Shown in pieces: positions 25,825 through 46,516 of a stretch of DNA of 64,000 nucleotides (positions are counted from its first letter, which is position 1; every line of letters begins with the position of its first letter). The notes under the pieces are model-generated. The model did not search any database, had not been told where the DNA came from, and worked only from the letters and a program-made list of their open reading frames with translations. The stretch is from a virus: positions 1 through 64,000 of the IMG/VR virus record IMGVR_UViG_3300042482_001138; one strand, given 5' to 3'. The position numbers were made by a program, and so were the translations under genes.

Positions 25825-28800
25825 ATGATGAGTTTTAAACTTTCTGGTGGCGTTGAAGTTCTTGGGTTTATATCTCCAACAGAACCCTCTGATGAATATC
25901 CAGTTATAGATCCTTTATATGGGATTGATGGATTTAGAAACGTAAACAATTTGTCAGATCTTGACACTATTCCTTTTTTAAGAAGAAGGGCAGGTATGGT
26001 CGCGGGTGTAAGTGGGGGAACTCAATACTATAAATTAAATCTTCCTCCTTGGAATTTTACTATATCAGATTGGAGCCCATTTTCAATTACAGGTGGAACC
26101 GGTACTTCTGGCACATCGGGATCAAGCGGGTCAAGTGGAACATCTGGAGCTCAAGGAACAAGTGGATCTGCCGGTACTAATGGAACTTCGGGTTCTGACG
26201 GATCTAGTGGCACCAACGGAACATCAGGAACTGATGGAACTAGTGGTTCTAACGGTACCGATGGAACTAGTGGTACAAACGGAACAAACGGAACAAACGG
26301 TACAAGTGGAATATCGGGCGTAAACGGTACAAGTGGTACATCAGGAACTAATGGAACTAGTGGAACAAATGGTACATCAGGAACTAATGGAACTAGTGGA
26401 ACAAATGGTACATCAGGAACTAATGGAACAGATGGGACTTCAGGTAGTAACGGAACAAATGGTACATCAGGAACTAATGGAACAAATGGAACATCAGGAA
26501 CTAACGGTACTGATGGAACTTCAGGTACTAATGGAACTTCAGGTACTAATGGAACTTCAGGTACTAATGGAACAGATGGTACTAGCGGAACAAACGGAAC
26601 AGATGGTACAAGCGGTACGAATGGAACTGACGGCACTAGCGGTACTAATGGTACTAATGGAACTTCAGGTACTAATGGAACTTCAGGTACTAATGGAACA
26701 GATGGTACTAGCGGAACAAACGGAACAGATGGTACAAGCGGTACGAATGGAACTTCAGGAACAAATGGTACAGATGGAACTTCAGGAACAAATGGTACAG
26801 ATGGAACTTCAGGAACAAACGGAACTTCAGGAACAAATGGTACATCAGGAACAAATGGTACTAGCGGCACAAACGGAAGTTCAGGAACAAACGGAACAAA
26901 CGGAAGTTCAGGAACAAACGGAACTTCAGGAACAAATGGAACAAACGGAAGCTCAGGAACAAATGGTACTAATGGGTCAAGTGGAACAAACGGTACAAGC
27001 GGCACAGGTGGAACTTCGGGGACAAATGGGACTAGCGGGACTAACGGTACAGACGGGACTAGCGGTTTATCGGGTGTAAACGGAACATCAGGTACTAATG
27101 GTACAGACGGTTCGAGCGGAACTAATGGGACTGATGGGTCAAGTGGAACTAATGGGACTAGTGGAACATCAGGTACTAACGGAACTTCAGGAACGAATGG
27201 AACTTCAGGAAGTAATGGTACTGATGGTACAAGTGGTACTGATGGTACTGATGGATCTTCAGGAACAAATGGTACAAGCGGTACGAATGGAACAGATGGG
27301 ACAAGCGGAACTAATGGTACGGACGGGTCAAGTGGAACTAATGGTACGGACGGTACTAATGGAACAGATGGAACCTCAGGAACTAATGGTACTGATGGAA
27401 CAAGTGGTACTGATGGTACTGATGGATCTTCAGGAACAGATGGGACAAGCGGAACTAATGGTACTGACGGCACTTCAGGTACAAACGGAACAGATGGGAC
27501 AAGTGGAACTAATGGTACGGACGGTACATCAGGTACAAACGGTACAGATGGAACTTCAGGTACTGACGGAACTAGCGGTACGAATGGAACGGATGGTACA
27601 AGCGGAACAGATGGTACAAGCGGTACGAATGGTACTGACGGAACTAGCGGAACAAATGGTACGGACGGAACTAGCGGAACAAATGGTACGGACGGCACTT
27701 CAGGGACTAACGGTACTGATGGCACAAATGGAACAGATGGATCTTCAGGTACAAATGGTACTGACGGAACAAGTGGTACTAATGGAACTGATGGATCTTC
27801 AGGAACAGATGGTACTAGTGGTTTATCTGGTGTAAATGGTACATCAGGAACTAACGGGACATCAGGTACAAACGGTACTGATGGAACTTCAGGAACTAAT
27901 GGTACTAGCGGCACAAATGGGACTGATGGTACTTCAGGAACTAATGGTACGGACGGTACAAGTGGAACAGATGGAACTTCAGGAACGGATGGGTCAAGTG
28001 GTACAGATGGAACAAGTGGGTCTTCAGGAACAAATGGAACGGACGGAACTTCAGGAACAAATGGAACTAACGGAACAGATGGTACTAGCGGAACAAATGG
28101 AACAGATGGTACTAGCGGAACAAATGGTACAGATGGTACTAGCGGAACTAACGGAAGTGACGGAACTTCAGGAACTAATGGTACTAACGGCTCAAGTGGA
28201 ACTGATGGTACAAATGGTTCTTCAGGTACAAATGGAACGGATGGTTCTAGCGGTACAGATGGTTCAAGTGGTACTAATGGTACTGACGGTAGTAGCGGAA
28301 CTGATGGAACTTCAGGTACCGATGGTACGAATGGATCAAGCGGAACAGATGGAACTAGTGGAACAGACGGAACAAATGGTTCAAGTGGTACTAATGGGAC
28401 TTCAGGTACAGATGGGACTAATGGGACAGACGGAACCTCAGGAACTGACGGAACAAATGGTTCAAGCGGAACAGACGGGACTAGCGGTACTAATGGTACT
28501 AATGGTAGTTCAGGTACAGATGGTACTAGCGGAACAAACGGTACTGATGGGACTTCAGGTACAGATGGTACTAATGGAACTTCAGGTACAGATGGTACTA
28601 GCGGTACTGACGGAACTAACGGGACAGATGGAACTAGCGGAACTAACGGAACAGATGGTACTAGCGGGACAGATGGAACTTCAGGTACGAATGGTACAGA
28701 TGGAACTAGTGGAACAGATGGTACAAACGGAACTAGTGGAACAGATGGAACAAACGGAACTAGTGGAACAGATGGAACAAGTGGAACTAATGGTACTAAT

Positions 28801-31800
28801 GGAACCTCAGGAACTAATGGTACGGATGGTACAAGCGGGACTAATGGGACTAACGGAACGGATGGAACTAGCGGTACCAATGGTACAAATGGTAGTTCAG
28901 GCACTAACGGAACTTCAGGAACAAATGGAACAGATGGTACTAGTGGAACTAATGGTACGGATGGAACTAGCGGTACTAACGGAACAAATGGTTCGAGTGG
29001 AACAAATGGTACAGATGGTACTAGCGGGACAGATGGTACTAGCGGAACTGATGGAACAAATGGTTCTTCAGGTACTAATGGTACTAACGGATCAAGCGGA
29101 ACTGATGGAACAAGTGGAACTAATGGTACAGATGGAACTTCAGGTACAAATGGTACAGACGGGTCTTCAGGAACAAACGGAACTAATGGTACTAGTGGAA
29201 CTAATGGTACAGACGGAACTAGCGGAACAGATGGTACTTCAGGGACTAATGGTACTGATGGGTCAAGTGGAACTAACGGAACTTCGGGTACAAATGGAAC
29301 AGATGGAACTTCAGGAACAAATGGAACAAGTGGGACAGATGGTACTAATGGTACTGACGGTAGTAGCGGAACTAATGGAACTGACGGAACATCAGGCACC
29401 AACGGTACAGATGGTTCAAGTGGTACTGATGGGACAAGTGGTTTGTCTGGTGTAAATGGAACATCAGGGACAAATGGAACTAACGGTACTAATGGGACTT
29501 CGGGAACTAACGGTACAGATGGTTCAAGTGGTACTAATGGTACGGACGGTACTAGCGGAACTAATGGAACAGATGGAACGAGCGGAACTGATGGTACAAA
29601 TGGAACGAGCGGAACTAATGGTACAAATGGAACGGATGGTACTAGCGGCACAAATGGAACAGACGGAACGAGCGGAACTGATGGTACAAATGGATCAAGT
29701 GGTACAAACGGAACAGATGGTTCAAGTGGTACTAATGGTACGGACGGAACTTCAGGTACAAATGGGACTGATGGTACAAGTGGTACTAACGGAACAAATG
29801 GTACGGATGGTACTAGTGGAACTGATGGTACTTCAGGAACTAACGGAACAAACGGTTCAAGTGGTACAGATGGTACTAGCGGTTCAAATGGAACTAACGG
29901 TACTAATGGTACAAGTGGAACAAATGGTACCAACGGAACTAGCGGAACAAATGGTACCAATGGTTCTTCAGGTACTAATGGAACTAATGGTACTTCAGGA
30001 ACTAACGGTACAAATGGGACTTCAGGCACTAACGGAACAAACGGATCATCAGGCACAAACGGTACTAATGGAACTTCAGGAACTGACGGTACGTCGGGAA
30101 CTAATGGTTCAAGTGGTACCAACGGTACTAGCGGAACTAATGGGACATCAGGTACGAATGGTACGAATGGTACTAGCGGAACTAATGGAACGTCAGGTAC
30201 CAACGGAACATCAGGAACTAATGGTACGAATGGCACTAGCGGTACGAACGGAACTAATGGAACTTCAGGAACCAATGGTACGAATGGAACTAACGGTACA
30301 AATGGGACTTCGGGAACTAATGGTACAAATGGAACTTCAGGGACTAACGGTACCAATGGGACTTCAGGAACAAATGGAACCAACGGTACAAGCGGAACTG
30401 ATGGAACTTCGGGTACAAATGGTACAAACGGTACTTCAGGTACTAATGGAACATCGGGAACAAACGGAACTTCCGGTACGAATGGAACAAATGGCTCAAG
30501 CGGCACTAATGGAACATCAGGTACAAACGGAACGGACGGAACTTCAGGAACAAATGGAACTAGCGGAACCAATGGAACTTCGGGCACTAATGGAACAAAT
30601 GGATCAAGTGGTACGAATGGAACTTCAGGAACGAATGGTACCAATGGAACATCAGGTACTAATGGGACTTCTGGTACAAACGGAACAAATGGTTCAAGTG
30701 GGACTAACGGTACATCAGGTACGAATGGAACTTCTGGCACTAATGGTACGAATGGGTCTAGCGGAACAAATGGAACTTCAGGTACAAACGGAACGAATGG
30801 TACAAACGGAACATCAGGTACGAACGGAACTAGTGGAACAAACGGGACTAATGGTACTAGCGGAACAAATGGTACAAACGGAACATCAGGAACCAATGGA
30901 ACCAATGGTACAAACGGAACTTCAGGTACAAATGGAACCAATGGAACATCGGGCACTAACGGTACTTCAGGTACTAACGGTACGAATGGAACATCAGGTA
31001 CTAACGGAACTAATGGTACTTCAGGTACGAATGGCACAAGCGGAACCAATGGTACAAACGGAACAAATGGAACTTCGGGCACAAATGGATCAAGTGGTAC
31101 GAATGGAACTTCAGGAACTAATGGTACTAACGGTACAAGTGGAACCAATGGTACAAACGGAACATCAGGTACGAATGGAACTTCAGGTACCAACGGAACA
31201 AATGGAACATCAGGAACGAATGGTACTTCGGGAACTAACGGGACAAATGGTACGTCGGGCACAAATGGTACCGATGGGACTTCAGGTACAAATGGAACCA
31301 ATGGTACTAGCGGGACTAATGGAACAAACGGGACTAGCGGGACCAATGGAACAAACGGGACTTCAGGTACGAACGGAACCAATGGATCAAGTGGGACAAA
31401 CGGAACATCAGGTACTAACGGTACCAACGGAACATCAGGAACTAACGGGACAAATGGAACGTCAGGTACTAATGGGACATCTGGCACTAATGGTACTTCA
31501 GGAACCAACGGGACTAGTGGTACGAACGGAACAAATGGTTCAAGTGGAACTAATGGAACATCAGGCACCAACGGGACTTCAGGTACTAATGGTACTAACG
31601 GAACTTCGGGAACTAATGGGACTAGCGGTACTAACGGAACTAATGGAACTTCAGGTACAAATGGAACTTCGGGTACTAATGGGACAAGTGGTACAAATGG
31701 AACTAATGGTACATCAGGAACCAATGGCACTTCGGGAACTAACGGTACATCAGGTACGAATGGAACAAATGGTAGTAGCGGAACAAACGGAACATCAGGA

Positions 31801-34800
31801 ACTAACGGTACTAATGGGTCTTCGGGAACAAATGGTACGAGTGGAACTAATGGTACTAGCGGAACTAATGGTACAAATGGTACGAGTGGAACTAATGGAA
31901 CATCAGGGACTAATGGAACCAACGGAACCAATGGATCAAGTGGGACAAACGGAACATCAGGTACTAACGGTACCAACGGAACATCAGGAACTAACGGGAC
32001 AAATGGAACGTCAGGTACTAATGGAACTAGCGGCACAAATGGAACTAGCGGCACAAATGGAACAAACGGTTCAAGTGGTACTAACGGGACAAATGGAACC
32101 TCAGGTACTAACGGCACAAACGGCACATCAGGAACCAACGGTACTAGCGGCACAAATGGAACAAACGGAACTAGTGGAACAAACGGAACTTCAGGTACTA
32201 ATGGTACAAATGGAACTAGCGGTACTAACGGAACTTCAGGTACTAATGGAACATCAGGTACTAACGGAACAAACGGAACTTCAGGTACGAATGGAACTTC
32301 GGGTACTAATGGAACAAATGGTTCAAGTGGAACTAACGGTACTAGCGGAACGAATGGAACTAGTGGTACTAACGGTACAAATGGTACTAGTGGAACAAAT
32401 GGGACATCAGGAACTAATGGTACGAACGGCACATCAGGTACCAATGGTACAAATGGAACATCAGGTACAAACGGAACTAGCGGTACGAATGGAACCAATG
32501 GAACTAATGGTACAAATGGGACTTCAGGAACTAACGGTACTAATGGTACGTCGGGTACAAATGGAACAAATGGAACTTCAGGTACCAACGGAACCAATGG
32601 ATCAAGTGGTACAAACGGAACGTCAGGCACAAATGGTACGAACGGTACAAATGGAACTTCAGGAACCAATGGAACTTCGGGCACAAACGGAACTAGTGGA
32701 ACAAACGGAACTTCAGGTACAAATGGAACGAATGGAACCTCAGGAACAAATGGTACTAACGGCACATCAGGAACAAACGGTACATCAGGTACAAATGGAA
32801 CTAATGGCACATCAGGGACAAATGGTACTAACGGAACTAGTGGAACAAACGGCACAAATGGTTCAAGTGGAACCAACGGTACTAATGGAACCTCAGGAAC
32901 TAATGGTACGTCAGGAACTAATGGTACAAACGGATCAAGTGGAACAAACGGTACATCAGGAACTAACGGAACAAATGGTACATCGGGTACTAACGGCACA
33001 AACGGAACGTCAGGAACAAATGGTACTTCAGGCACTAACGGAACCAATGGAACAAACGGAACTTCAGGTACGAATGGAACAAACGGTACTAGCGGAACTA
33101 ATGGTACTTCAGGTACTAATGGAACTTCGGGAACGAACGGAACAAATGGTACTAGCGGAACAAATGGTACTTCAGGTACAAATGGAACTAGTGGGACTAA
33201 CGGTACTAATGGGACTTCAGGAACAAACGGAACTAATGGTACATCAGGTACGAATGGAACTAGCGGAACAAACGGAACTTCAGGAACAAATGGAACCAAT
33301 GGAACATCAGGGACTAATGGTACAAACGGCACTTCAGGTACTAATGGAACAAATGGAACCTCAGGGACTAATGGTACAAACGGCACTTCAGGTACTAATG
33401 GAACATCAGGAACAAATGGTACAAATGGAACTTCGGGGACAAACGGTACTTCAGGAACTAATGGTACAAACGGTACTTCGGGCACGAATGGAACCAGCGG
33501 AACAAATGGTACATCAGGAACTAACGGGACTAGCGGAACTAATGGAACATCAGGTACAAATGGTACAAACGGATCTTCAGGGACTAACGGAACGAATGGA
33601 ACCTCAGGAACTAACGGAACGAATGGAACCTCAGGAACTAACGGAACAAATGGTACATCGGGTACGAATGGAACTAATGGTACATCGGGTACGAATGGAA
33701 CAAATGGAACATCAGGTACTAATGGAACTTCAGGAACAAACGGTACTAACGGAACTTCAGGTACAAACGGTACAAATGGGACTTCAGGTACAAACGGAAC
33801 TAGCGGAACAAATGGAACAAATGGAACCTCAGGGACTAATGGAACTAGTGGGACAAACGGAACATCGGGTACAAACGGGACTAGTGGAACGAATGGTACT
33901 TCAGGGACAAATGGAACAAATGGATCAAGTGGTACAAACGGAACATCCGGTACTAATGGAACAAACGGTACTTCAGGAACAAACGGTACTAACGGAACTT
34001 CAGGTACAAACGGTACAAATGGGACTTCAGGTACAAACGGAACTAGCGGAACAAATGGAACAAATGGAACCTCAGGGACTAATGGAACTAGTGGTGTTAG
34101 TGGTTTAAATGGTACAAACGGAACTTCAGGAACCAATGGGACTAATGGAACATCGGGTACTAGAGGTACTTCAGGTACTAATGGGACAAATGGTTCTTCA
34201 GGAACTAGTGGAGGTGGAGGTGGAGGCGCAATTTCTATTTATGACGAAGGAATTTTAGTTCAATCAAGTGCCACAAGTTTAAATTTTGTCGGTGTGTGTA
34301 CTACAGCATCATCAGGCACAAGCGGATCAGTCACAGTAAATATTGGTTGTGGATGTGAATACGAATATATTAATATAGCGTCAAACTCAGGTTATTTAGA
34401 ATTAGACAAACCAACCGATTTTACTAAAATATGGATTGGTAATAAATTGGGTGGTTGGAATTGTTGTCCTTGGGATTATTTTGAACCAGGGGTTAATGGT
34501 AATTTGTCAAGAACAAGATATCCTTATTATGGTGTGCCATTACCAACATCTTTATATCCAGGAGATGTTGTTAGAATTTGTGGTTCAATAACACAAATAA
34601 ATCAGGGTGGTAATCCATGTTTAACTTATGATGATATAAGAGTTGGAGTGTCTTATATCAGTTGTTCTGATTCTAGTGCAATTATATTTGCAAATACATT
34701 GATACCGGCTACTGATCTTATTTTAAATGGTAATGGTACGGCTTGTTTTAATTTAGAAGTTGGTATAGACGTTACCCTACCGGCTTGTGATACTATGTTA

Positions 34801-36009: not shown

Positions 36010-36010
36010 A

Positions 36011-36037
36011 AAAACCCCACTTTAAAGGTGGGGTTTA
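36011..36037. terminator. Bidirectional terminator between the giant fibre and its convergent glycosyltransferase
   Basis: A 9-bp stem AAACCCCAC / GTGGGGTTT with a 7-base loop (36012-36036) has A/T-rich tracts on both sides and can serve both convergent genes, whose stops are at 36009 and 36042. Confidence 0.85.
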
Positions 36038-36041
36038 AGTT

Positions 36042-38960
36042 TTATTTTCTATTATCAAAATAAAATATTACTTCACAATACCACTCTAAAAAATGATCAT
36101 TAAATAAATCCCATTTAATATCAACACCATCAACAGAATAAACTTCATAATTATCAAAGTTAGAAAGAACATTATCCCTAAACCATTTAAATTTACATTT
36201 ATTAAAATGTTCGTCATCTCTTAAATGAAATTCGGTTACAATCTTAGGAATTGTTTTTAAAAATTCTACGTTGCTTGGTTGAAAAACATCGTATTCCCCA
36301 CCTTCACAATCACATTTTAAAAAATCAATTTTGTTAATATTTTCATTTTCTAAAAATTCTTTAAAACTAAATGTAGGAACACTTTCAGTTATTCCATCCC
36401 AACTGATTTCAATTTTCTTTTTATCAGTAATTGCTCCCTGTATAATTTTTACATTATCTTCACCAACATTTTTATGAAGAACTTCAATCTGATATGATAA
36501 TGGTTCAACTACATAACATTGTTTTGGATTTTTAGGTAATATTTTATATGTAAATGGACCTAAAGATGCGCCCAAATCTACAACAATATCTCCTTCTTCA
36601 ACTTCAAAGAATCTTTCATATGTATTATTTTCAAATATTTCTTTAGTTGCTTGATTAACATACCAATCACTTTTTTTACCCCAATCGAATGAAGTTTCTT
36701 CATTTTTTTCAATCATTAATTCTTTATTTATTATTTTGTTTATTTCCAAAATGACCATTTCTGAAGTAATTTCTTTCGTACACTCAAACATCCTATCTGT
36801 GTTTTTATGTAATGGACACCAATTCCAATCACCAGCATCCAATCTTTCCGAATTGAAACATCCGTGACAAACATTTTCATTTATGACTCTGTATGTATTT
36901 AAAGTTGTTTCCGCCCATCTTTCACTAAAACCCGATATTAAAACAATAGGTAATTCACAAGCCCAAGCCAACCAACTAAGACCTGAACCGAGACCAATAA
37001 AAAATTCACATGTTGATAAATCATCAACTACTTCTTGTAGATTTCCCCCTTTAAATAATTTTACACCTTCAGGATAGTTGTTATTCATGTATCCGTTACC
37101 TTCCTTTGAATATATGACACATTCATAACCAAGGGATAAAAGGTAGTTCACAACTTCTTGCCATCCATTTGTGTTGTTCCAATATTTTGCCTGAGCAGTT
37201 GAATGAAAACCAATACCAACTTTTTTTTCTTTTTTTATTTTAGGTAATTTTAATTTTGGTCTTATTTCATTGTATTGTAAACCTAATATATCTGAAGCCG
37301 TTTTTTGTAATGGTTGTTTTTTTACATCGACTTTGTGGATATTTGAATTGATAGTCCCATCTTCATTGTAAAACCAACCTAATCTATATTGTGCGTATAT
37401 GTTTTGAACAATAACACCCGGTTCGACAAATTCAATTTCTGTATATTGTTCTTTGAACAAATAGTTCATGAAGGTAGAAACGATTAGTTTACATTTGTGT
37501 TTGATTCTAAATTCTTCACAATATGGTAACCATGCTAAGGTATCCCCTAAAGATTTTGAACCGAATGATATGTAGACTCTTTTATTTTCCAAGTTAAGTA
37601 AATTACTATAAATTAGTTGTCCATTTTCTTTTACTTCGGTTTTCCAAGGTACATAATATTCCGTATTGAGTCTTACCCAATGGTTGATTGGTAATTCGTT
37701 TGAATAAATTAAATTATTTTCATCATATATTTTTATATCAAGTTTGTTTTCAGTACTACCCAATATTTCCAAAAAAGGATTAACAACAAAATGTTGATTA
37801 AACGTGTAATCATTTTTGTGTTTTTGGTTTTGTACTTTGTCATTTTCTAAAACTCTTTTATAAAATGAATATAATTGTTCCCCAAAATCTTGTTGGGTTT
37901 CTATTTCATATGAAGATTCTTTTTCAATTAAACTTAATAATTGTTCTGATATTTTTTTATAATCATCATTTTCAATACTTGTGATGTATCTGTCGAACAT
38001 CCCCATGTACTGAGGTAGGTTTCTGGTCAATATTTTCATTCCGTAGTTGATTGCTTCTCTTACAACCAAAGGATTACATTCCCATGTTGAATTGAACATC
38101 AAAACATCACATGACTCCATGAATTTATCAACGTCATTTCTTTCACCCCATACCGTAACATTTGAAGGTAAGTTTTCCATTATTGGTTTCCAATAAGATT
38201 CAAAATTGGGGGCTTGGTTTCCTATGAAGTGAAAATGTAAATCGGGATTAGTATGTTCCAATAATTTTGCAACTTCGATACCTTCTTTTTGATTTTTTCC
38301 TTCGGTCCAAAGACCAACATTAAGAATGTGTGTTTTCATTGGGTCCAACCCAAGATTTTCTCTTTCTGTTATTTTTTTCAAAAGAGGTATTTTATGATGT
38401 TCATAATAGATTTGTAATTCTTCTAAAATAGGTTTGACTTTGTTTTCATATGGGTACAAATGAAGTTCTTTAAGTGATCTTTCAGATTCAAAAGTGGTAA
38501 AATGAAAAGGACTAACGAATGAATATGCGTCAGGATGAAATTTTTTATTATTTGGGTTAAACCAAACATTGTGACACGTTTCAACAATATTCCAAGATCG
38601 TTGATTATCATAAAGTTCGTTCAAAATGTCCAATGTAATTTTATTAAAACTTTCAAAGGCTTCGGGTATTTCTTCTGAATGAATGATATCTATTTTTAAA
38701 TCCTTAATTATTTTTAAAAGTTCTTTTTTTCTACTTGATTCTGTTGTTGATCCCAAAGTAAAAAAATGACCTACATCTAATAAATCAATGATTTTGTTTC
38801 TTTGTACGATATATGTGTCACTAAATTGAGAATATTCTACTAAAAAAATATCAAGTTTATCTTTGTATTTCAGAAGTGATTCAATTCTTTTTAGGACAAA
38901 CTGTGGCATACCACCAGTTGATAAATGTGGCGTTAGATATAGTATTTTAATTTTTTGCAT
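36042..38960 (-). CDS. Fusion of GT4 glycosyltransferase, TibC/BAHT-like O-heptosyltransferase and FkbM methyltransferase
   Basis: 972 residues. Residues 1-380: GT4 with PHLSTGGMPQFVLKRI, HILNVGLWTEGKNQKEGIEV and LMFNSTWECNPLVVREAINY. Residues ~385-455: beta linker. Residues ~460-745: GT9-type domain with SFGSKSLGDTLAWLPYCEEF, GIGFHSTAQAKYWNN, and a C-x2-C-x13-C-x11-C cluster (Cys698, 701, 715, 727, ending RMFECTKEI), which matches the bacterial autotransporter heptosyltransferase (BAHT/TibC) family with its metal-binding cysteine finger. Residues ~775-970: FkbM methyltransferase with VVDLGASLGPFTYKI and FLKCDCEGGEYDVF. BAHT enzymes put heptose on Ser of surface proteins. Convergent with, and 33 bases from, the giant Ser/Thr-rich fibre gene. 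Confidence 0.82.
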   Translation of the reverse strand: MQKIKILYLTPHLSTGGMPQFVLKRIESLLKYKDKLDIFLVEYSQFSDTYIVQRNKIIDLLDVGHFFTLGSTTESSRKKELLKIIKDLKIDIIHSEEIPEAFESFNKITLDILNELYDNQRSWNIVETCHNVWFNPNNKKFHPDAYSFVSPFHFTTFESERSLKELHLYPYENKVKPILEELQIYYEHHKIPLLKKITERENLGLDPMKTHILNVGLWTEGKNQKEGIEVAKLLEHTNPDLHFHFIGNQAPNFESYWKPIMENLPSNVTVWGERNDVDKFMESCDVLMFNSTWECNPLVVREAINYGMKILTRNLPQYMGMFDRYITSIENDDYKKISEQLLSLIEKESSYEIETQQDFGEQLYSFYKRVLENDKVQNQKHKNDYTFNQHFVVNPFLEILGSTENKLDIKIYDENNLIYSNELPINHWVRLNTEYYVPWKTEVKENGQLIYSNLLNLENKRVYISFGSKSLGDTLAWLPYCEEFRIKHKCKLIVSTFMNYLFKEQYTEIEFVEPGVIVQNIYAQYRLGWFYNEDGTINSNIHKVDVKKQPLQKTASDILGLQYNEIRPKLKLPKIKKEKKVGIGFHSTAQAKYWNNTNGWQEVVNYLLSLGYECVIYSKEGNGYMNNNYPEGVKLFKGGNLQEVVDDLSTCEFFIGLGSGLSWLAWACELPIVLISGFSERWAETTLNTYRVINENVCHGCFNSERLDAGDWNWCPLHKNTDRMFECTKEITSEMVILEINKIINKELMIEKNEETSFDWGKKSDWYVNQATKEIFENNTYERFFEVEEGDIVVDLGASLGPFTYKILPKNPKQCYVVEPLSYQIEVLHKNVGEDNVKIIQGAITDKKKIEISWDGITESVPTFSFKEFLENENINKIDFLKCDCEGGEYDVFQPSNVEFLKTIPKIVTEFHLRDDEHFNKCKFKWFRDNVLSNFDNYEVYSVDGVDIKWDLFNDHFLEWYCEVIFYFDNRK

Positions 38961-38994
38961 AAATAAAAAATAAGTTTAGACTTAATAAATTAAA

Positions 38995-39010
38995 GTATTT
39001 ATTTAATAAA
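38995..39010 (+). promoter_or_regulatory. Candidate late promoter (TATTTATT type)
   Basis: GTATTTATTTAATAAA, 6 bases before the ATG at 39017, in the divergent gap with the glycosyltransferase fusion gene. Confidence 0.55.
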
Positions 39011-39016
39011 CAATAA

Positions 39017-40018
39017 ATGCCAAACTCAGTTAAATATTCAACAACAGGGGATACTCGATCAATAAAAAAAGGAAATTTGTATTTTGGTGTTGGTGACGTT
39101 CCAAAAGGACCAAGTACCAACACATCTTATTTTAATGGTATTACACCTGTTACTGGTGGTTATACTGTATATAGGTACGAGCCAACACAAAGTAGTAAAC
39201 TTGCTTTTTATACTAATCAAACAGGAACTGATCTTGTAAATTATACAAATAATTTTTTAGGACAAAACTTTTCAACATCAACACAATGTGTGAATTGGTT
39301 CAACACACAAACGAATTATGTTTGTGTAAATAAAGACTATGACCCAATAATTACTTCAGGACTGACTCTATGTTTAGACGCGTCTTTCACCCCATCATAT
39401 TCTACTTCTGGAAATTCTTGGTATGATTTATCATATAATTCATTTACAACAACTTTAGTTAATGGACCAACATTTGATTCGGGAAATGGCGGATCAATAC
39501 AGTTTGATGGAACCGACGATCAATGTGTAGTTACGTCAAATGGGTTTGGTACGTTCAATAATCAGAAATATACAATCGAGGCTTGGGTTAATTTTGCAAG
39601 TAATAGTGGGGATATTCCAATTTTTAGTTATGATTATTCAAGTTTTAACAACCCATATTATTCTGCTCACCTTAGAAACACGGGTACGGGACAAATATTT
39701 TTAGGTTGGAACATGTCGGGATTTTATTACAATATACAAACTACATCGACTGTGATTTTTCCCAATACTTGGTATTATGTTGTTGGTATTGTTGAAAGTG
39801 GAAGACAACAAATTTATGTTAATAGTAACTTGTGGGCTAGTGGGACTATATCAGGAACAATAACATTTTATAACACTCCTGTTTATGTTGGGTATTTTCC
39901 AAATGCACCTTTAGTCATGAATGGAAAAATTGCCGTGGTTAGAGTTTATAATAGAGCATTTTCTTCTTCAGAAGTAAGTCAAAATTGGAATGCACAAAAA
40001 ACAAGATTCGGATATTAA
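39017..40018 (+). CDS. LamG/concanavalin-like fibre or adhesin protein (copy 1)
   Basis: 333 residues. The N-terminal ~110 residues form a virion-type domain; residues ~120-330 are a LamG-like jelly roll: LTLCLDASFTPSYS, GGSIQFDGTDDQCVV, KYTIEAWVNFAS, WYYVVGIVESGRQQIYVNS, and KIAVVRVYNRAFSSSEVSQN, ending QKTRFGY. LamG domains bind glycans, so receptor binding is a reasonable inference. The next gene is a paralogue with the same layout and ending. Confidence 0.78.
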   Translation: MPNSVKYSTTGDTRSIKKGNLYFGVGDVPKGPSTNTSYFNGITPVTGGYTVYRYEPTQSSKLAFYTNQTGTDLVNYTNNFLGQNFSTSTQCVNWFNTQTNYVCVNKDYDPIITSGLTLCLDASFTPSYSTSGNSWYDLSYNSFTTTLVNGPTFDSGNGGSIQFDGTDDQCVVTSNGFGTFNNQKYTIEAWVNFASNSGDIPIFSYDYSSFNNPYYSAHLRNTGTGQIFLGWNMSGFYYNIQTTSTVIFPNTWYYVVGIVESGRQQIYVNSNLWASGTISGTITFYNTPVYVGYFPNAPLVMNGKIAVVRVYNRAFSSSEVSQNWNAQKTRFGY

Positions 40019-40038
40019 GGAATTAAATTTTGAAACAT

Positions 40039-40050
40039 AATATTTATTTA
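40039..40050 (+). promoter_or_regulatory. Candidate late promoter (TATTTATT type)
   Basis: AATATTTATTTA, 9 bases before the ATG at 40060. Its position argues for the 40060 start over the upstream TTG at 40030. Confidence 0.5.
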
Positions 40051-40059
40051 AAAAAAGTT

Positions 40060-41052
40060 ATGTCAACATCTAGACCTTTTTCATATAATACTGGCTCAAC
40101 AATAAATGGTACAATACAAGTTGGAAGTTTGGCGGTAGGATTCCCAACCGTAGGATTTGATTCTACTGGTTTAGAATGGTGGAATGGTCCTGATGAAGAT
40201 TTAGGTTATGTTATTGCACAACCCGTACCAAATGATAGTCAACCAACACCTGTGCTTGGACAAACCGCTTCTGTTGGTTTTTTTAGAACCAACGGTTTTG
40301 ATGATAATGAATTTTTAGACATAACAAATATTTTGTTAGGAACAAATTATATAGATCCATTTTTAGCATCCTCTGCACTTACAGTAAATGGATTTTGGAA
40401 TTCTTATCCTAATCCAGTTTTATATTTAGACGCTGGTGACCCTGCTAGTTATTCAGGAAGTGGTTCCGTTTGGATTGATACAATAGGAGGTAAAACTTTC
40501 AACTTAGTTAATGGACCATCTTACGGTCCTGGTTTTGGTGGAATTCTTAACTTCAACGCGTCAAGTGGTCAATACGCCCAATGTAACACGAGTTTACCAA
40601 ATTTGAGTAATTGGACGGTTTCTGTTTGGAATTATTATGATGGTACAAACGTCGGAGGAGCACCTTGTATTGTTACTGAAATTTATCCGGGTACTACAAG
40701 CAACATAAATTATTCAATTGGTGTGAATAATAGTGGATTTAACGCCGGGTTTTTCAATGGGGCTTGGAGAGAAAGTGGAACCTATTCATTAAGTCCAAAT
40801 AATTGGTATTTTATTGTTGGCACATATGATGGTAACACATTGAAACTATATATTAATAATACTTTAGTTGGTACAGGAAATTACACTGGTACTCCTATAT
40901 CATCTCAAGGAGGAATAAGGTTGATGAGAAGATGGGATCTTCCCGATTATTGGGGCGGACTGTTAGGTACTGTTGGTATATATGACTTTGCACTCAATTC
41001 AGGACAAATATCTGCAATATGGAATACAACTAAATCAAGGTTTGGTTTGTAA
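40060..41052 (+). CDS. LamG/concanavalin-like fibre or adhesin protein (copy 2)
   Basis: 330 residues from the ATG at 40060; an in-frame TTG at 40030 would add ten residues encoded by the promoter-like element and is rejected. LamG strands: VLYLDAGDPASYSGSG, GGILNFNASSGQYAQC, NWTVSVWNYYDG, WYFIVGTYDGNTLKLYINN, GLLGTVGIYDFALNSGQISA, ending TKSRFGL. The pair of tandem paralogues suggests duplication and divergence of a receptor-binding protein. Confidence 0.78.
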   Translation: MSTSRPFSYNTGSTINGTIQVGSLAVGFPTVGFDSTGLEWWNGPDEDLGYVIAQPVPNDSQPTPVLGQTASVGFFRTNGFDDNEFLDITNILLGTNYIDPFLASSALTVNGFWNSYPNPVLYLDAGDPASYSGSGSVWIDTIGGKTFNLVNGPSYGPGFGGILNFNASSGQYAQCNTSLPNLSNWTVSVWNYYDGTNVGGAPCIVTEIYPGTTSNINYSIGVNNSGFNAGFFNGAWRESGTYSLSPNNWYFIVGTYDGNTLKLYINNTLVGTGNYTGTPISSQGGIRLMRRWDLPDYWGGLLGTVGIYDFALNSGQISAIWNTTKSRFGL

Positions 41053-41056
41053 AATC

Positions 41057-41084
41057 AAATATAAAATTTCTACATTTTATATTT
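41057..41084 (+). other. AT-only 11-bp inverted repeat
   Basis: Arms AAATATAAAAT and ATTTTATATTT around a 6-base loop, between the LamG gene and the GT9 gene. It may be a weak terminator or processing hairpin; no GC pairs and only a short T tract follow. Confidence 0.35.
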
Positions 41085-41105
41085 CTTTAAGTTATATTTT
41101 AATTA

Positions 41106-42038
41106 ATGAAAGAAATTTGTATTGATGTTACAGGTTGTCGTGCTTTGGGCGACACTTTATGTGCAACACCTGTGGTTAAAAAAATAAGTAATACTTATAA
41201 TAAAAAAGTTTCGGTAGTTTCTCACCACCCAAAATTATTTACTAACTTATCATACGTTGAAAACAGTTTTGAATACAACCCAAAATTGTTTGATGATTTG
41301 AAAAAAGATTACGATATCTTTCCAACTTTTGATGTGTCATACAAAGACAATGGAATTTGTAACAAGCACAACTCTATGGATATAAGACAACTACACGCAA
41401 TAAACTTAGGATTTATGTTGACTAAAGAAGAATCTTCTTTGGATTATGTACCAGATGCTTGTATCTTACCCATTTTACCAAAAAAATACGTTTTAATCCA
41501 CCCCGTTCAAAATTGGAATTCAAGGACATGGCCGGCCAAAAATTGGCAAATATTAACAAAACTTTTAAATGAAAAAGGAATTTACGTTGTATCTGTTGGA
41601 AAAGATTCTTCTGAATTAGGTGGGTCTAATGTAGATAAACCCGTTTTCAATTTTGAAATAGAACTTGGATTAAATCTTATGAACAAAACAACTTTGGATG
41701 AAACATGGTATCTGTTAAATGGTTGTTCTTGTTTTGTAACTATGGACTCTGGACTATTACATTTAGCCGGTACAACAGATTGTGAAATACTACAACTTGG
41801 TAGCTCAATAGATCCTGAATTCAGAGCACCATATAGACATGGTTCACAAGAATATAAGTATCATTATGTTAGAGGGGGTTGTGGTTTACATTGTGCTTCT
41901 GATATGAAGTATGGCGTTAGAGAATGGGGATCGATACAAGGAATACCATCTTTAGTTAATTGTTTAGAAAGAAAAAAAACTTTTGAGTGTCATCCTTCTG
42001 TTTTACAGATTTATCAAAAAATCTTAGAAATAATATAA
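41106..42038 (+). CDS. Family 9-type glycosyltransferase (heptosyltransferase-like)
   Basis: 310 residues. The N-terminus has CIDVTGCRALGDTLCATPVV, the GT9 G-x-GDxL acceptor motif; the C-terminal half has YVLIHPVQNWNSRTWPAKNW and CFVTMDSGLLHLAGTTDCE, the donor-binding DSG-x-xH-x-A motif typical of ADP-heptose transferases. Its C-terminus contains GGCGLHC, NCLER and TFECHPSV, a cysteine spacing recalling the BAHT-like domain at 36042-38960. Acceptor unknown; lipopolysaccharide or protein both possible. Confidence 0.85.
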   Translation: MKEICIDVTGCRALGDTLCATPVVKKISNTYNKKVSVVSHHPKLFTNLSYVENSFEYNPKLFDDLKKDYDIFPTFDVSYKDNGICNKHNSMDIRQLHAINLGFMLTKEESSLDYVPDACILPILPKKYVLIHPVQNWNSRTWPAKNWQILTKLLNEKGIYVVSVGKDSSELGGSNVDKPVFNFEIELGLNLMNKTTLDETWYLLNGCSCFVTMDSGLLHLAGTTDCEILQLGSSIDPEFRAPYRHGSQEYKYHYVRGGCGLHCASDMKYGVREWGSIQGIPSLVNCLERKKTFECHPSVLQIYQKILEII

Positions 42039-42042
42039 GTTT

Positions 42043-42057
42043 GTATTTATTAAAAAA
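42043..42057 (+). promoter_or_regulatory. Candidate late promoter (TATTTATTA type)
   Basis: GTATTTATTAAAAAA, 9 bases before the GTG start at 42067. Confidence 0.55.
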
Positions 42058-42066
42058 AACCAAACA

Positions 42067-42537
42067 GTGTCACAACAAATAACAATTACAGGAATAACAG
42101 GCACCCCACCATATGATATATATGTTTGTGATATAACAAACACAATCTGTGTTTTTGTAACCGGATTAACTAGTTGTCCACCAACGTATAGTTTTTACGT
42201 CCCATCACCCTTAAATAATTCATCGTCTATTATTTTAAAGATAATTGATTCTGATGCTTGTGAAACCTTTCAACTTTTCAATTGTTTTACACCAACACCT
42301 ACTCCAACACCTACCCCCACACCAAGTCCTTTACCCACTTCTTGTAACTGTATTTCAGTAAGGTCAAACACAATGGATGGTGGAACATTTGATTTTATAG
42401 ATTGTTTTGGAAATCTTAACACATTTGTCCCAGTACCTTTTGGTAGTACGTTGTATTTTTGTGGTTCGAACCCGTCCAATTTTAACAACGTAAATCTTAC
42501 TGTTGGTTTACCATGTGTGCTTAATGTTTGTCCATAA
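42067..42537 (+). CDS. Small Thr/Pro-rich virion-like protein
   Basis: 156 residues with a GTG start; no upstream ATG is available in frame. Two small Cys-containing beta domains (about 1-75 and 90-156) are joined by a TPTPTPTPTPTPSPLPT linker. It resembles the 25021-25809 protein in layout. No membrane segment. Likely a decoration or fibre protein from its own promoter; function not recognised. Confidence 0.7.
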   Translation: MSQQITITGITGTPPYDIYVCDITNTICVFVTGLTSCPPTYSFYVPSPLNNSSSIILKIIDSDACETFQLFNCFTPTPTPTPTPTPSPLPTSCNCISVRSNTMDGGTFDFIDCFGNLNTFVPVPFGSTLYFCGSNPSNFNNVNLTVGLPCVLNVCP

Positions 42538-42562
42538 AATTATTTATTTTGAATTTAAAAAC

Positions 42563-42575
42563 CGTATTTTTATTC
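42563..42575 (+). promoter_or_regulatory. Variant promoter-like element
   Basis: CGTATTTTTATTC, 10 bases before the ATG at 42586; one base longer than the usual element. Confidence 0.35.
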
Positions 42576-42585
42576 AAAAAACTAA

Positions 42586-43833
42586 ATGAAAATTTTTATA
42601 CAAATTGCATCCTACAGAGATCCACAGTTATTACCCACAATTAAAAACTGTATTGAAAATTCAAAACACCCCGAAAATTTAATTTTTTCAATTGCAAGAC
42701 AATATCACATAGAAGATGGGTTTGATGATTTATCTGAATTTGAAAACGACAATAGATTCAAAGTGATCAACATACCCTACACAGAATCCAAAGGGGTTTG
42801 TTGGGCAAGAAACATGACACAACAACAATACAATAATGAAGAATATACCCTTCAAATTGACTCACACATGAGATTTGAAAAAAATTGGGATGAAACATTA
42901 ATAGGTATGATTAAAGACTTACAGAAAAAAGGATTTAAAAAACCTTTACTAACAAGTTATGTTTCTTCATTCGATCCTGAAAACGATCCAACAGGAAGGG
43001 TAAATGAACCTTGGAGAATGGCTTTCGATAGATTCACACCCGAAGGTTGTGTTTTTTTCTTACCTGAAGTAATTCCTAATTGGAAAGAACTTGATGGTCC
43101 TGTACCATCAAGATTTTATTCCGCACATTTTTGTTTTACCTTGGGTCAATTTTCTAAAGAAGTTCAGCACGATCCTGAATATTATTTTCATGGAGAAGAA
43201 ATATCAATCGCCGTAAGAGCATTTACTCATGGATATGATTTGTTTCACCCACACCGTGTGGTCATTTGGCATGAATACACAAGAAAGGGTAGAACAAAAC
43301 AATGGGATGATGATAAAGAATGGTTTTTGAAAAATGACTTTTCACACTCTAAAAACAGAAAACTATTAGGTGTTGACGGTGAAGAACTTGGGAATTTGTC
43401 AGACTCTTATGGATTTGGAAAACAAAGAACATTAAGAGATTATGAAAAATATTCAGGAATATTGTTTTCAAAAAGGGCGGTTCAAAAATATACTTTAGAC
43501 AAAAATTACCCACCAAACCCAAACAATTTTTCTTCTGAAGAAGAATGGGAAAAAAGTTTCTCAATGATTTTCAAACACTGTATTGATGTATCATTTAATG
43601 ACGTACCTGAAAATGATTATGAGTTTTGGGTTGTTGCCTTTCATAATGAAAAAGATGAAACATTATTTAGACATGATGCTGATGTAAAAGAAATAATTCA
43701 AATGAAAAAAGATCCTGATGGTTATTGTAAAGTATGGAGAGAATTTGATACAACTGAAAAACCCAAGTATTGGGTTGTTTGGCCCTATTCTAAATCCAAG
43801 GGATGGTGTAACAGATTAACAGGTAATTTATAA
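42586..43833 (+). CDS. GT60-type polypeptide GlcNAc-transferase-like protein
   Basis: 415 residues. Residues ~1-255 carry the family landmarks: IFIQIASYRDPQL at the start, KGVCWARNMTQQQYNNEEYT, LQIDSHMRFEKNWDETLI (the metal/donor site), YFHGEEISIAVRAFTHGYDL and VVIWHEYTRKGRTKQWDDD. This family includes enzymes that add GlcNAc to hydroxyproline of Skp1 and to Thr of mucins in protists. A C-terminal extension (~290-415) with WVVWPYSKSKGWC is additional. The next gene starts at its stop codon (TAATG). A protein acceptor, rather than a lipid-linked glycan, is inferred from family membership. Confidence 0.83.
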   Translation: MKIFIQIASYRDPQLLPTIKNCIENSKHPENLIFSIARQYHIEDGFDDLSEFENDNRFKVINIPYTESKGVCWARNMTQQQYNNEEYTLQIDSHMRFEKNWDETLIGMIKDLQKKGFKKPLLTSYVSSFDPENDPTGRVNEPWRMAFDRFTPEGCVFFLPEVIPNWKELDGPVPSRFYSAHFCFTLGQFSKEVQHDPEYYFHGEEISIAVRAFTHGYDLFHPHRVVIWHEYTRKGRTKQWDDDKEWFLKNDFSHSKNRKLLGVDGEELGNLSDSYGFGKQRTLRDYEKYSGILFSKRAVQKYTLDKNYPPNPNNFSSEEEWEKSFSMIFKHCIDVSFNDVPENDYEFWVVAFHNEKDETLFRHDADVKEIIQMKKDPDGYCKVWREFDTTEKPKYWVVWPYSKSKGWCNRLTGNL

Positions 43834-44837
43834 TGATGGAACTTAACATTAGGCACGAATTTAGGGATCTCAGACTTGGTAACAATGAATTTTACGTTAC
43901 AAGTTTTTTTAAAAAATTTTATGAAAGTTTAAAAACAAAATATCCTGAAATAAATTTTAGTATAAAAAATGAAACTTCTTTTGGGAAGTATGGTCAGGGG
44001 GGAATTTATAGCTGCATGAATTTTTCTATAGTGAACCCTATCAACAAAAAGTATGTCTTGATTTCTTTTTTTGATAATTGGAAATATCATTTCATGTCTC
44101 ATTTAGGTTGGGAGGCTAATAAAATGGTTCAATTTTTTTATCCCGGCGGATTCAATTTTTATGATTATTTTACCTTTAAGGACACTTCAAAAAATAATTC
44201 TGACTTACAGTTTCCAAAAAACATGGACGATATTTTTACCCCTTTTTATTATGGACCTTACTTTGATTGTTGTTATGAAGAAATTAATAACATATACAAA
44301 CAAAATTTAAACAAGGAAAAAATCAATAAATTGTATTTCAGGGGTTGGATGTGGGATTTCAGAAAAGAAATGGTAAGTAAAATAAATCAAGAAGACATAT
44401 TAATAATTGATAAAAATAAAAATAATCAGACTTTAAATTACTTAGAATTTTTAGAAGATAGTTCCAAATATTCTGCGGTATTGAGTTTACCAGGTGGTAA
44501 TGAAATGTGTAATAGAGATATAGAATGTTTTGGAATTGGAGTACCTGTAATAAGACCAGCAGTAAACGTAAAATACAAAGATCCTCTGATACCTAACTAT
44601 CATTATATTAGTTGTTATGATTTTTGTGATTATTCAATTGACGGAAATCCAAAATATATTTCCAACGAAGATTTTCAAAAAAATTTAATAAAAAAATGGA
44701 ACTCAGTAAAAAATAATAAAGAATATTTAGATTTCGTTTCAAAAAATGCAAGATCTTGGTTTGAAAAAAATTGTAGGGTGGATAAAAATATAACGTGCGT
44801 TTTGGAACAATTAAACTTAGAAAAACTTTTTGAATAA
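43833..44837 (+). CDS. Probable glycosyltransferase, GT90/CAP10- or exostosin-like
   Basis: 334 residues. The C-terminal half has KYSAVLSLPGGNEMCNRDIE and CFGIGVPVIRPAV, a donor-binding loop as in CAP10-type and exostosin-like GT-B enzymes, and a preceding KLYFRGWMWDFRKEM. The N-terminal half (RHEFRDLRLGNNEFYV) is unassigned. Start and stop overlap the neighbouring glycosyltransferase genes by one base each, so the three are translated as a set. Confidence 0.6.
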   Translation: MMELNIRHEFRDLRLGNNEFYVTSFFKKFYESLKTKYPEINFSIKNETSFGKYGQGGIYSCMNFSIVNPINKKYVLISFFDNWKYHFMSHLGWEANKMVQFFYPGGFNFYDYFTFKDTSKNNSDLQFPKNMDDIFTPFYYGPYFDCCYEEINNIYKQNLNKEKINKLYFRGWMWDFRKEMVSKINQEDILIIDKNKNNQTLNYLEFLEDSSKYSAVLSLPGGNEMCNRDIECFGIGVPVIRPAVNVKYKDPLIPNYHYISCYDFCDYSIDGNPKYISNEDFQKNLIKKWNSVKNNKEYLDFVSKNARSWFEKNCRVDKNITCVLEQLNLEKLFE

Positions 44838-46516
44838 TGATAACTTTAGTAACTGGATTGTGGGATATAGGTAGAGGTGACCTTAAAGAAGGGTGGTCAA
44901 GAAATTTTGATTTCTATTTAGAAAGATTTAGAGATATTTTAAAAATAGATTGTAATCTTATTATTTTTGGTGATGAAGAATTACATAAGTTTGTATTATC
45001 AGAAAATAGGGACAAAACAAAAACAAAATTTATCACAAGAAACTTAGATTGGTTTAGAAACAACGAATATTTTGAAAAAATTCAAAACATAAGAAAAGAC
45101 CCGAAATGGTTTAATCAAGTTGGGTGGTTAAAAGATTCGACCCAATCAACTTTAGAAATGTACAATCCTTTGGTCATGTCCAAAATGTTTTTATTACATG
45201 ACGCGATGTTACTTGATCCATTCAATTCTGAAAAGTTATATTGGATTGATGCGGGAATTACAAATACTGTAAATTTAGGTTATTTTACAAATGACGATGT
45301 TTTATCAAAAATTGACAAATTATTAAACAACTTTACTTTCTTAGCATTTCCTTATGAAACAGATACAGAAATACACGGATTTTCAATAAAAGGAATGACG
45401 GATTACATAGGAAAAAAACCAGATATGGTATGTAGGGGAGGATTTTTTGGTGGCCCAAAGCATTTAATTTCTGAAATGAATGTTAATTACTATCAAACAT
45501 TAATTAGTACTCTTTCTGATGGATACATGGGAACAGAAGAAAGTATCTTTACTATTTTAACCTATAACTTACCTACCATAATAGATTTTTGTAAAATTGA
45601 TTCTAATGGTTTAGTTTATAAATTTTTTGAAGACATAAAAAATAATCAAGTTGTTATAGAAAACACTTCGGTTACGAAGTTTGAAAAAAAACCAATATCA
45701 TATTCTGGAGGCGTCGGATTATATGTTATAACATTTAATTCACCAAAACAATTTGAAGTTTTGATTGAATCTATGTTAGAATACGATCCTTCGTTTTTAA
45801 GTAAAACTAAAAAGTTTTTATTGGATAATTCTACAGATTTAACTACAAGTAAAGAATACAAAAATTTGTGTAGTTTATATGATTTTGAACATATCAAAAA
45901 AAATAATATAGGCATAACTGGTGGCAGACAATTTATCGCCGAACATTTTAACCAACAGGATGACTTGGATACTTATTATTTTTTTGAAGATGATATGGCT
46001 TTTTACAAAAAAGATTCCGGTGTTTGTAAAAATGGTTTTTCAAGATACATTAAACACATTTTTGATATTACTCAAGAAATAATAAAAAAAGAAAATTTTG
46101 ATTTTTTAAAACTTAATTTTACCGAATTTTTTGGAAGTCATGATAAGCAGTGGGCTTGGTACAATGTACCTCAAACATTTAGGGAAAAACATTGGCCAAA
46201 AAACAAAAGTCTACCAAAACAAGGTTTGGACCCAAATTCACCTAATTTAGAGTTCAAACATATAAAATCACATAGAGGTTTAGCATATGCATCAGGAGAA
46301 ATTTATTTATCAAATTGGCCAATACTTATGACTAAAAATGGTAATTATAATTGTTATCTGAAAACAAAATTTAAAAATCCTTATGAACAAACATTGATGA
46401 GCCATTGTTATCAAGAAACAATCAAAGGAAATATTTTTGGATCTGTTTTACTATTGACACCAACAGAACATAATAGATTTGACTTTTATGATTCTAAATT
46501 AAGAAAAGAATGTTGA
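44837..46516 (+). CDS. Two-domain glycosyltransferase: HtrL/YibB-like plus GT2-like
   Basis: 559 residues. Residues ~1-275 resemble HtrL/YibB and WlaTC proteins: TLVTGLWDIGRGDLKEGW, YNPLVMSKMFLLHDAMLL, LYWIDAGITNTVNLGYF, MVCRGGFFGGPKHLI. Residues ~290-559 begin GVGLYVITFNSPKQFEVLIE with DTYYFFEDDMAFYKKDSG in the DXD position and SHRGLAYASGEIYLSNWP, a GT2-like second active site. Cytoplasmic, no membrane helices. Overlaps the previous gene by one base. Confidence 0.7.
   Translation: MITLVTGLWDIGRGDLKEGWSRNFDFYLERFRDILKIDCNLIIFGDEELHKFVLSENRDKTKTKFITRNLDWFRNNEYFEKIQNIRKDPKWFNQVGWLKDSTQSTLEMYNPLVMSKMFLLHDAMLLDPFNSEKLYWIDAGITNTVNLGYFTNDDVLSKIDKLLNNFTFLAFPYETDTEIHGFSIKGMTDYIGKKPDMVCRGGFFGGPKHLISEMNVNYYQTLISTLSDGYMGTEESIFTILTYNLPTIIDFCKIDSNGLVYKFFEDIKNNQVVIENTSVTKFEKKPISYSGGVGLYVITFNSPKQFEVLIESMLEYDPSFLSKTKKFLLDNSTDLTTSKEYKNLCSLYDFEHIKKNNIGITGGRQFIAEHFNQQDDLDTYYFFEDDMAFYKKDSGVCKNGFSRYIKHIFDITQEIIKKENFDFLKLNFTEFFGSHDKQWAWYNVPQTFREKHWPKNKSLPKQGLDPNSPNLEFKHIKSHRGLAYASGEIYLSNWPILMTKNGNYNCYLKTKFKNPYEQTLMSHCYQETIKGNIFGSVLLLTPTEHNRFDFYDSKLRKEC

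Follow-up and report, generated by a model that had tools for sequence, protein, structure and literature searches.

We analysed a stretch of 64,000 bases (hereafter the window), the first 64,000 positions of virus record IMG/VR IMGVR_UViG_3300042482_001138 (274,138 bases in total), which encodes a giant fibre with a long Gly-X-Y array, an enzyme of the BAHT family convergent with it, and a GT60-type enzyme with its partners. By gene content the virus is a myovirus, since a tail sheath (phrog_23, 1.4e-58), a tail tube, a baseplate-hub match and a DNA polymerase were found in the window. Our results suggest that this phage attaches O-glycans to its own virion through two matched enzyme-acceptor sets, namely the BAHT enzyme with Ser residues of the fibre (module A) and the GT60 enzyme with stalks containing Pro-Thr (PT) or poly-Thr tracts (module B). 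We estimate the probability of this reading at roughly 0.65. The pairing of BAHT and fibre was the strongest link found. A first-pass annotation, made from the sequence alone, had described the fibre repeat, a convergent BAHT-bearing protein, a GT60, a GT9 and two more glycosyltransferase-like proteins, the last with two domains, and all of these were located at the positions given there.

The fibre gene (25825-36009, plus strand) is one open reading frame (ORF) of 3394 residues, comprising an anchor (residues 1-89), a Gly-X-Y array (residues 90-2801; 26092-34227, plus strand) and a Cys-rich tip. The array contained 904 triplets with zero breaks, which agrees with the long unbroken Gly-X-Y of collagen-like proteins, while Pro, which such proteins carry as Pro or hydroxyPro, was absent from all 896 triplets counted. 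In these triplets the X position was occupied mainly by Thr (821) and Ser (64), and the Y position by Asn (436), Ser (344) and Asp (112). The array does not look like a product of chance or assembly. A 21,047-base locus from another metagenome record was identical, letter for letter, to window positions 26720-47766 and spans most of the array, arguing against an assembly error; in a further near-identical record the array was 27 triplets shorter (816 versus 843 pattern hits, or 243 bases). Synonymous codons recurred between triplets almost at random (Gly 0.33-0.41 versus 0.38 expected, Thr 0.32-0.40 versus 0.37), indicating that the protein pattern is maintained while the DNA drifts, and 37 different 100-base words were repeated within the array, indicating that local duplication is also ongoing. 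Successive Ser residues were 2 or 3 triplets apart in 313 of 346 gaps, compared with 132 expected by shuffling. The same spacing was seen in several other Asn-rich arrays; however, other arrays carried Ser at almost each triplet, and the spacing is therefore not a general rule. N-linked glycosylation was considered and rejected, because the 436 Asn-Gly-Ser/Thr sequons of the array are a consequence of the repeat; a Pfam scan of 21 window proteins listed neither an oligosaccharyltransferase nor a GT41 match. A 2661-residue frame is also open antisense to the array (26151-34136, minus strand) and may be called by automatic gene callers.

The enzyme gene convergent with the fibre (36042-38960, minus strand) encodes 972 residues in three domains: a GT4 domain (PF00534, 8e-16), a BAHT domain (residues 400-743; 36732-37763, minus strand) and an FkbM methyltransferase domain (residues 793-912; 36225-36584, minus strand; TIGR01444), the last of which the first-pass annotation had left unnamed. 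Its proposal of a TibC-like middle domain was confirmed. The domain scored 281 bits against TIGR04414, the autotransporter O-heptosyltransferases, exceeding the curated cut-off of 200, and the BAHT part aligned with TibC (4rb4) over 332 residues (9e-64). Excerpts of the TibC study (PMC4358343) assign roles to Asp110, Thr226, Lys230, Trp305, the iron-finger Cys residues, Arg286 and Pro300. In TibC numbering, Asp110, Thr226, Lys230 and Trp305 were retained in 39/39 phage BAHT rows, including that of the window, as were the iron-finger residues Cys339, 342, 358 and 370. The same excerpts state that TibC modifies Ser, not Thr; therefore, the Thr residues of the fibre are not expected to be the BAHT site.

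In contrast to the retained residues, Arg286, the adenine contact of ADP-heptose, is Val in the window and was present in 0/42 phage-type versus 14/14 classical BAHT rows (41 and 12 distinct). The position of Pro300, the determinant of heptose stereoselectivity in TibC (PMC4358343), was occupied by Gly in 36 of the 39 phage rows. In a 56-row tree, the 14 classical and 42 phage-type rows were split at support 100/100, and by sequence the phage-type BAHTs are a clade of their own. The surroundings of the classical enzymes were different as well. An SGG-rich autotransporter-like ORF was present in 3/11 classical BAHT loci (flanks of approximately 1.5 kb), and within these short flanks runs of at least five Gly-Ser/Thr triplets were found in 0/11, whereas the neighbour of the window BAHT is a Gly-X-Y fibre and not an SGG-repeat autotransporter. 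The window domain is thus a BAHT by family, yet it fails two features of the known function, the donor contact and the autotransporter acceptor.

The pairing recurred in related viral records. A BAHT-domain scan of viral contigs gave 277 relatives, 80 of which were kept and formed 37 clusters at 90% identity. A Ser-type array, defined as at least 12 Gly-X-Y triplets in which half of the X positions hold Ser/Thr and a fifth of the Y positions hold Ser, was found within 10 kb in 24 of these clusters. At a BAHT identity of at least 71%, an array was present in 18/22 clusters, in all 18 downstream and on the other strand, which is also the arrangement in the window, at 0.5-7.8 kb from the end of the BAHT domain match; one of the 18 (L127) had just 12 triplets before the contig end. 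Collagen-like repeats of another type (GAT/GPT/GAQ) were observed approximately 5.2 kb downstream of a close BAHT in two loci, L158 and L126.

To avoid choosing records by BAHT, 46 records were selected by GT60 or DNA polymerase (polB), and each was searched whole. This set, a set of 29 BAHT-chosen records and the 80-locus sets are parts of longer lists, and the dereplication of the 46 records and the Ser/non-Ser sorting of the 39 records described below were done by eye. A full BAHT at 70% identity or more was detected in eight of the 46 records, and all eight contained an array; another record (G034), in which the BAHT was cut at the contig end and no array was present, was set aside from the comparison. 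Only 2/37 of the remaining records carried an array (Fisher p = 2e-7, an underestimate given the relatedness and fragmentary state of the records). Four of these 37 had a BAHT at 43-47% identity, and among the other 33, six gave just 32-36% identity matches to proteins of approximately 305 residues. The reverse search started from arrays and used 39 records of at least 40 kb, taken from 80 listed of at least 120 stretches, after removal of one that had been searched before and of another that was a second stretch from a contig already represented. TIGR04414 was matched in 16/39 of these records, in 15 over the cut-off. All 16 were among the 31 records with Ser in Y, compared with 0/8 among those with GTQ, GST, GTT, GCV or GxG repeats (p = 0.012).

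The anchor and the GT9 gene provided further comparisons. A domain 67-79% identical to the anchor of the fibre preceded a Gly-X-Y shaft in L020, which carries a BAHT, whereas in L018, L024 and L027 it was followed by other shafts; no close BAHT was found in the whole records of L018 and L024 or, for L027, in the locus or in the record of L026, a near copy. Five further loci had weaker anchor homologues (51-58%), which belonged to short proteins or other shafts, with no arrays. The GT9 enzyme (41106-42038, plus strand; PF01075, 2e-16) was found at 60% identity or more in 8/9 BAHT-positive versus 1/71 BAHT-negative GT60 loci, and in 44/63 BAHT-chosen loci at 57% BAHT identity or more versus 0/17 below, indicating that GT9 belongs with module A.

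The pairing was also found outside this metagenome group. The BAHT part was matched by four of 50,697 phage records, two of them of equal length, and an array was present in 2/3 of the matching records that were searched for it, with 116 pattern hits in Mel-JY01 and 1056 in the 735-kb megaphage LR756501. No array was found in XacN1, RAS14 or B23, none of which matched BAHT, and DSL-LC02 gave 11 hits versus 9 in the control. Mel-JY01 (Microcystis phage, PP395634, L005) encodes a plus-strand Gly-X-Ser fibre running from the record start (region 1-3052), of which the annotation gives the end alone (2519-3052), plus two minus-strand genes antisense to the fibre. Downstream are a gene annotated as structural protein and then a 1226-residue protein that combines a GT4 domain with a BAHT at its C-terminus. 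A literature search for Mel-JY01 retrieved no paper. A scan of genome collections gave three loci with BAHT in metagenome-assembled genomes (MAGs), two of which look like phage contigs by eye; in one of the latter (L379), a fibre with Gly-Ser/Thr-Ser stretches directly follows the BAHT. On a Polaromonas MAG contig with bacterial-looking neighbours (L381 7950-9399), the BAHT is convergent with a 102-residue Gly-Ser/Thr-Ser repeat ORF, which by eye has a signal- and lipobox-like start. TIGR04414 was rare in bacteria, being matched in 2/399 genomes of the family and 8/398 of the phylum of the Polaromonas MAG (that MAG counted in both) and in 1/395 of the phylum of a Bacteroidetes MAG, where the sole match was that MAG itself, on a phage-like contig.

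For module B, the GT60-type assignment made earlier for 42586-43833 (plus strand; phrog_24687, 1e-164) stood. The enzyme matched PF11397, a GlcNAc-transferase family that we take to be CAZy GT60, at 237 bits versus a gathering score of 21 (5e-70). It is followed on the same strand by a protein with a predicted GT-B fold (43833-44837) and by a protein with HtrL_YibB and GT-A domains (44837-46516; PF09612, 3e-18), whose models had a pLDDT (predicted local distance difference test) of 82.7 and 86.3, respectively. The GT-B protein reached no Pfam family over the cut-off, and its modelled fold matched POGLUT2 (Z 16.1) and POGLUT1 (Z 15.5) only slightly above generic GT-B folds (up to 15.4), on which any membership in POGLUT/GT90 would depend. 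Over both domains together, the model of 44837-46516 gave a root-mean-square deviation of 17-18 against LH3 and mimivirus R699, and we therefore limit the claim to the fold of each domain.

A GT60 scan gave 402 relatives, of which 80 were kept (34 clusters at 90% DNA identity; fetched stretches of up to 21 kb). HtrL was encoded on the strand of GT60 in 80/80 loci, and in 75 of them it lay no more than 5 kb downstream, whereas a relative of the GT-B protein was present in just 13/80. Among the 34 clusters, 27 had neither BAHT (at 55% or more) nor array, four had both, one had BAHT alone and two had the array alone (BAHT with array, p = 0.0015). BAHT was also found beside arrays in records where no GT60 turned up. 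These results do not support the earlier suggestion that GT60 acts together with BAHT on the fibre. Since the two modules occur separately, we split the interpretation into module A and module B.

Homologues of the GT60 and HtrL/GT-A proteins were identified in the jumbo phages XacN1 (45% and 40% identity, respectively) and RAS14 and in CM1. In XacN1 and RAS14, a giant protein (approximately 3,300 and 3,100 residues) near the GT60-HtrL pair ends in PT tracts; a matched comparison of the XacN1 protein with GT60-less relatives was ruled out, as tblastn of a 293-residue piece matched only three GT60-bearing phages. Between GT60 and HtrL, XacN1 has a gene annotated as carbamoyl transferase (L002 15409-17706), and a gene of similar appearance occupies this position in RAS14. 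The UDP-GlcNAc:polypeptide alpha-GlcNAc-transferase of T. cruzi presumably belongs to GT60, too. As excerpted from PMC3769586, this enzyme uses KPPTTTTTTTTKPP. For XacN1, proteomic analysis of the phage is reported to have revealed at least two virion glycoproteins, with the phage-encoded ORF328 and ORF334 put forward as the enzymes responsible (PMC5852040). ORF334 is the XacN1 homologue of the window GT60.

Pro-Thr and poly-Thr tracts were found in five proteins of the window, all encoded on the plus strand: a protein that has a papain-like C-terminus and carries (PT)6 and T5 tracts (22143-25019), a protein with five (TP)n tracts that adjoins the fibre (25021-25809), a small protein with a TPTPTPTPTPTP tract (42067-42537), which is a possible module B acceptor, a protein with TTTTTT near its end (46544-47011), and the tail sheath (58088-61411), which carries a TPTP/TTTTTTT stretch. 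The sheath is 1107 residues long, and its Pro/Thr tracts precede the conserved C-terminal part. (PT)3 tracts were present in 44/46 GT60/polB records and, among the 29 BAHT-chosen records, in 10/10 with GT60 versus 8/19 without (p = 0.003). Tract density per 100 kb was 39.2 in GT60 loci (71/80 loci), 19.8 in close-BAHT, 13.7 in polB and 4.5 in array-first loci, with 0 in 20 distant-BAHT loci and 0-0.1 in the reversed control. Among loci with GT60/HtrL in the fetched stretch, PT tracts were present in 25/29 close-BAHT and 39/53 polB loci. Taken together, GT60 with its HtrL/GT-A partner is common across this phage group, mostly without a Gly-X-Y array, and goes with PT/T-tract proteins.

We propose that the BAHT domain of 36042-38960 would add the first sugar to Ser in the Y position of the shaft, the target Ser mostly recurring at each second or third triplet in the window fibre. 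The fused GT4 domain and GT9 may then extend the shaft glycan, and the FkbM domain may methylate it. In module B, GT60 would probably add the first sugar to Thr in Pro-Thr/poly-Thr stalks elsewhere in the virion, on the PT proteins and the sheath, and the HtrL/GT-A protein, as well as the GT-B protein where present, would extend the glycan thus started. Such glycans would likely serve to stiffen or shield a very long shaft and flexible stalks, or to present an altered surface towards the host or proteases. A more specific version, in which the BAHTs lacking Arg286 are a mainly phage subclass that moved away from autotransporters, is dedicated to collagen-like Gly-X-Ser shafts and uses a donor other than ADP-heptose, alongside an independent GT60 module on Pro-Thr stalks, giving a two-track virion glycosylation programme in a large phage group known mostly from metagenomes, is offered as a tentative and somewhat doubtful idea.

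The enzyme families, catalytic residues, co-occurrence, convergent synteny and clade are established here, and the part of the earlier interpretation that links the enzymes with acceptor-like proteins gains support from the co-occurrence data, above all for BAHT and fibre. Several observations weigh against the proposal. The glycan acceptors, the donors, the order of steps and the use are inferred, as is the virion location of the PT proteins other than the sheath. Activity of the phage BAHT with ADP-heptose is doubtful on alignment grounds, because Arg286 is missing in all 42 phage-type rows. Four of the 22 close clusters (L158, L126, L124 and L112) had no array, although the downstream sequence was limited to 529 bases in L112 and 3.8 kb in L124. 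Distant BAHT clusters paired less, with an array in 6/15, upstream in two of the six, and none in 9/15; similarly, three of the four records with a 43-47% BAHT had no array, and the fourth had three array hits at the contig end. Arrays were also found without the enzyme, as in G018 (one of the 33), whose 57-kb contig has a large array and no BAHT, and in the 23/39 array-first records where the TIGR04414 search gave no match. LR756504 has a BAHT and no array, and in L114 and L125 a BAHT is present, yet the anchor homologue (51-52%) is a 261-residue array-free protein and the array lies in another ORF. For module B, among loci that lacked GT60/HtrL in the fetched stretch, PT tracts occurred in 12/31 close-BAHT, 9/27 polB and 6/119 array-first loci. 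Finally, because many records are fragments and share ancestry, the p values are underestimates, especially those for module B.

Other explanations account for part of these data. The glycosyltransferases could alter host surface polysaccharide, for example to block other phages, their proximity to the fibre reflecting a clustering of host-recognition genes. Such a role has been proposed for glycosyltransferases near tail-fibre genes of pelagimyophages (PMC7029224, excerpt), and the further glycosyltransferase genes at 7171-19255 would fit it. GT9 also matches lipopolysaccharide (LPS) heptosyltransferase models, though below their cut-offs. The BAHT is nearer to the protein-modifying TIGR04414, over its cut-off, than to those models. 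As the BAHT also tracks fibre type rather than fibres in general, and as the pairing is also present on the Polaromonas MAG contig, we regard a host-surface role as unlikely. An enzyme-substrate link might also be absent altogether, with shaft, BAHT and GT9 hitchhiking as one recombining host-range cassette. Related phages that retain GT60/HtrL and polB do differ in these three, and relatedness among the loci is common; however, the pairing recurs in Mel-JY01, the megaphage and the Polaromonas MAG contig, where gene order or strand differs, and among the 39 array-first records BAHT pairs with Ser-type repeats only, which makes hitchhiking quite improbable.

The earlier idea that BAHT and GT60 jointly build one glycan coat on the Gly-Thr-X fibre draws on both enzymes lying within 7 kb of it. 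This one system was rejected on co-occurrence, the modules being found apart in both directions, and the occurrence of GT60 without such fibres is the very result that the first-pass annotation had said would speak against its claim, which is thus unsupported; we consider joint action on the fibre very unlikely. Glycosylation of the phage DNA, a reported role of phage glycosyltransferases (PMC12619734, excerpt), appears scarcely credible for these enzymes, as the profile matches of the window proteins included no family named DNA glucosyltransferase and the T4 alpha-glucosyltransferase chain 1ya6 was merely rank 43 among the fold matches of the GT-B protein.

Other genes of the window were also examined. 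Between the BAHT and GT9 genes, two Laminin_G_3 (concanavalin-like) proteins are encoded on the plus strand (39017-40018, PF13385 6e-22; 40030-41052, PF13385 1.5e-18). A second sugar-gene group (7171-19255, minus strand) encodes GT2 enzymes (three above the Pfam cut-off), a DegT aminotransferase and a hexapeptide transferase, together with a beta-keto acid cleavage enzyme (PF05853, 5e-61). These genes may supply sugars or be further glycan genes, and a link to the fibre system is possible.

The BAHT family has so far been known for bacterial adhesins, and our data suggest that a virus sugar-coats its own fibre with one; the listings of literature searches limited to open-licence papers showed no paper on a BAHT or heptosyltransferase acting on a phage fibre. 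The enzyme-acceptor pair recurs in most phage BAHT clusters and predicts the Ser of Gly-X-Ser shafts as acceptor, with the loss of Arg286 as a sequence mark of the enzyme clade. Mel-JY01, a phage with a named host that carries the pair, allows this claim to be tested. If true, the proposal would provide enzymes for glycosylating designed collagen-like proteins and would be relevant to the encounter of phage fibres with host cells and proteases.

Several known systems, described here from excerpts of the cited papers, share features with the two modules. TibC/Aah with TibA/AIDA-I (TIGR04414; PMC4358343) have in common with module A the family, the catalytic and iron-finger residues and a repeat-bearing acceptor, proposed in our case, next door. 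In contrast to TibC/Aah, the window BAHT belongs to a separate clade, lacks Arg286, is fused to GT4 and methyltransferase domains and lies beside a Gly-X-Y fibre instead of an SGG autotransporter. In C. difficile, the gene of the glycosyltransferase SgtA adjoins that of the collagen-like protein BclA3, which SgtA glycosylates (PMC7157674), whereas the window enzyme is of BAHT type and its acceptor would be Ser. Mimivirus L230 likewise represents virus-encoded glycosylation of a collagen-like protein of the virus itself, but it hydroxylates Lys and adds glucose and is thus a different kind of enzyme (PMC9614988). Mycobacteriophage Che8, as told in PMC11256854, encodes glycosyltransferases and has virion glycans, which in that phage are on the major capsid protein. 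For module B, XacN1 shares the GT60 and HtrL/GT-A homologues, the PT tracts and reported virion glycoproteins (PMC5852040), but has neither a BAHT match nor a Gly-X-Y array. The T. cruzi GlcNAc-transferase (PMC3769586) acts on Thr in a Thr/Pro-rich peptide, as proposed for the phage enzyme, the one being eukaryotic and the other from a phage. The mode of action of module A would resemble that of TibC-TibA and SgtA-BclA3, but the enzyme comes from a new clade and its partner is a viral fibre.

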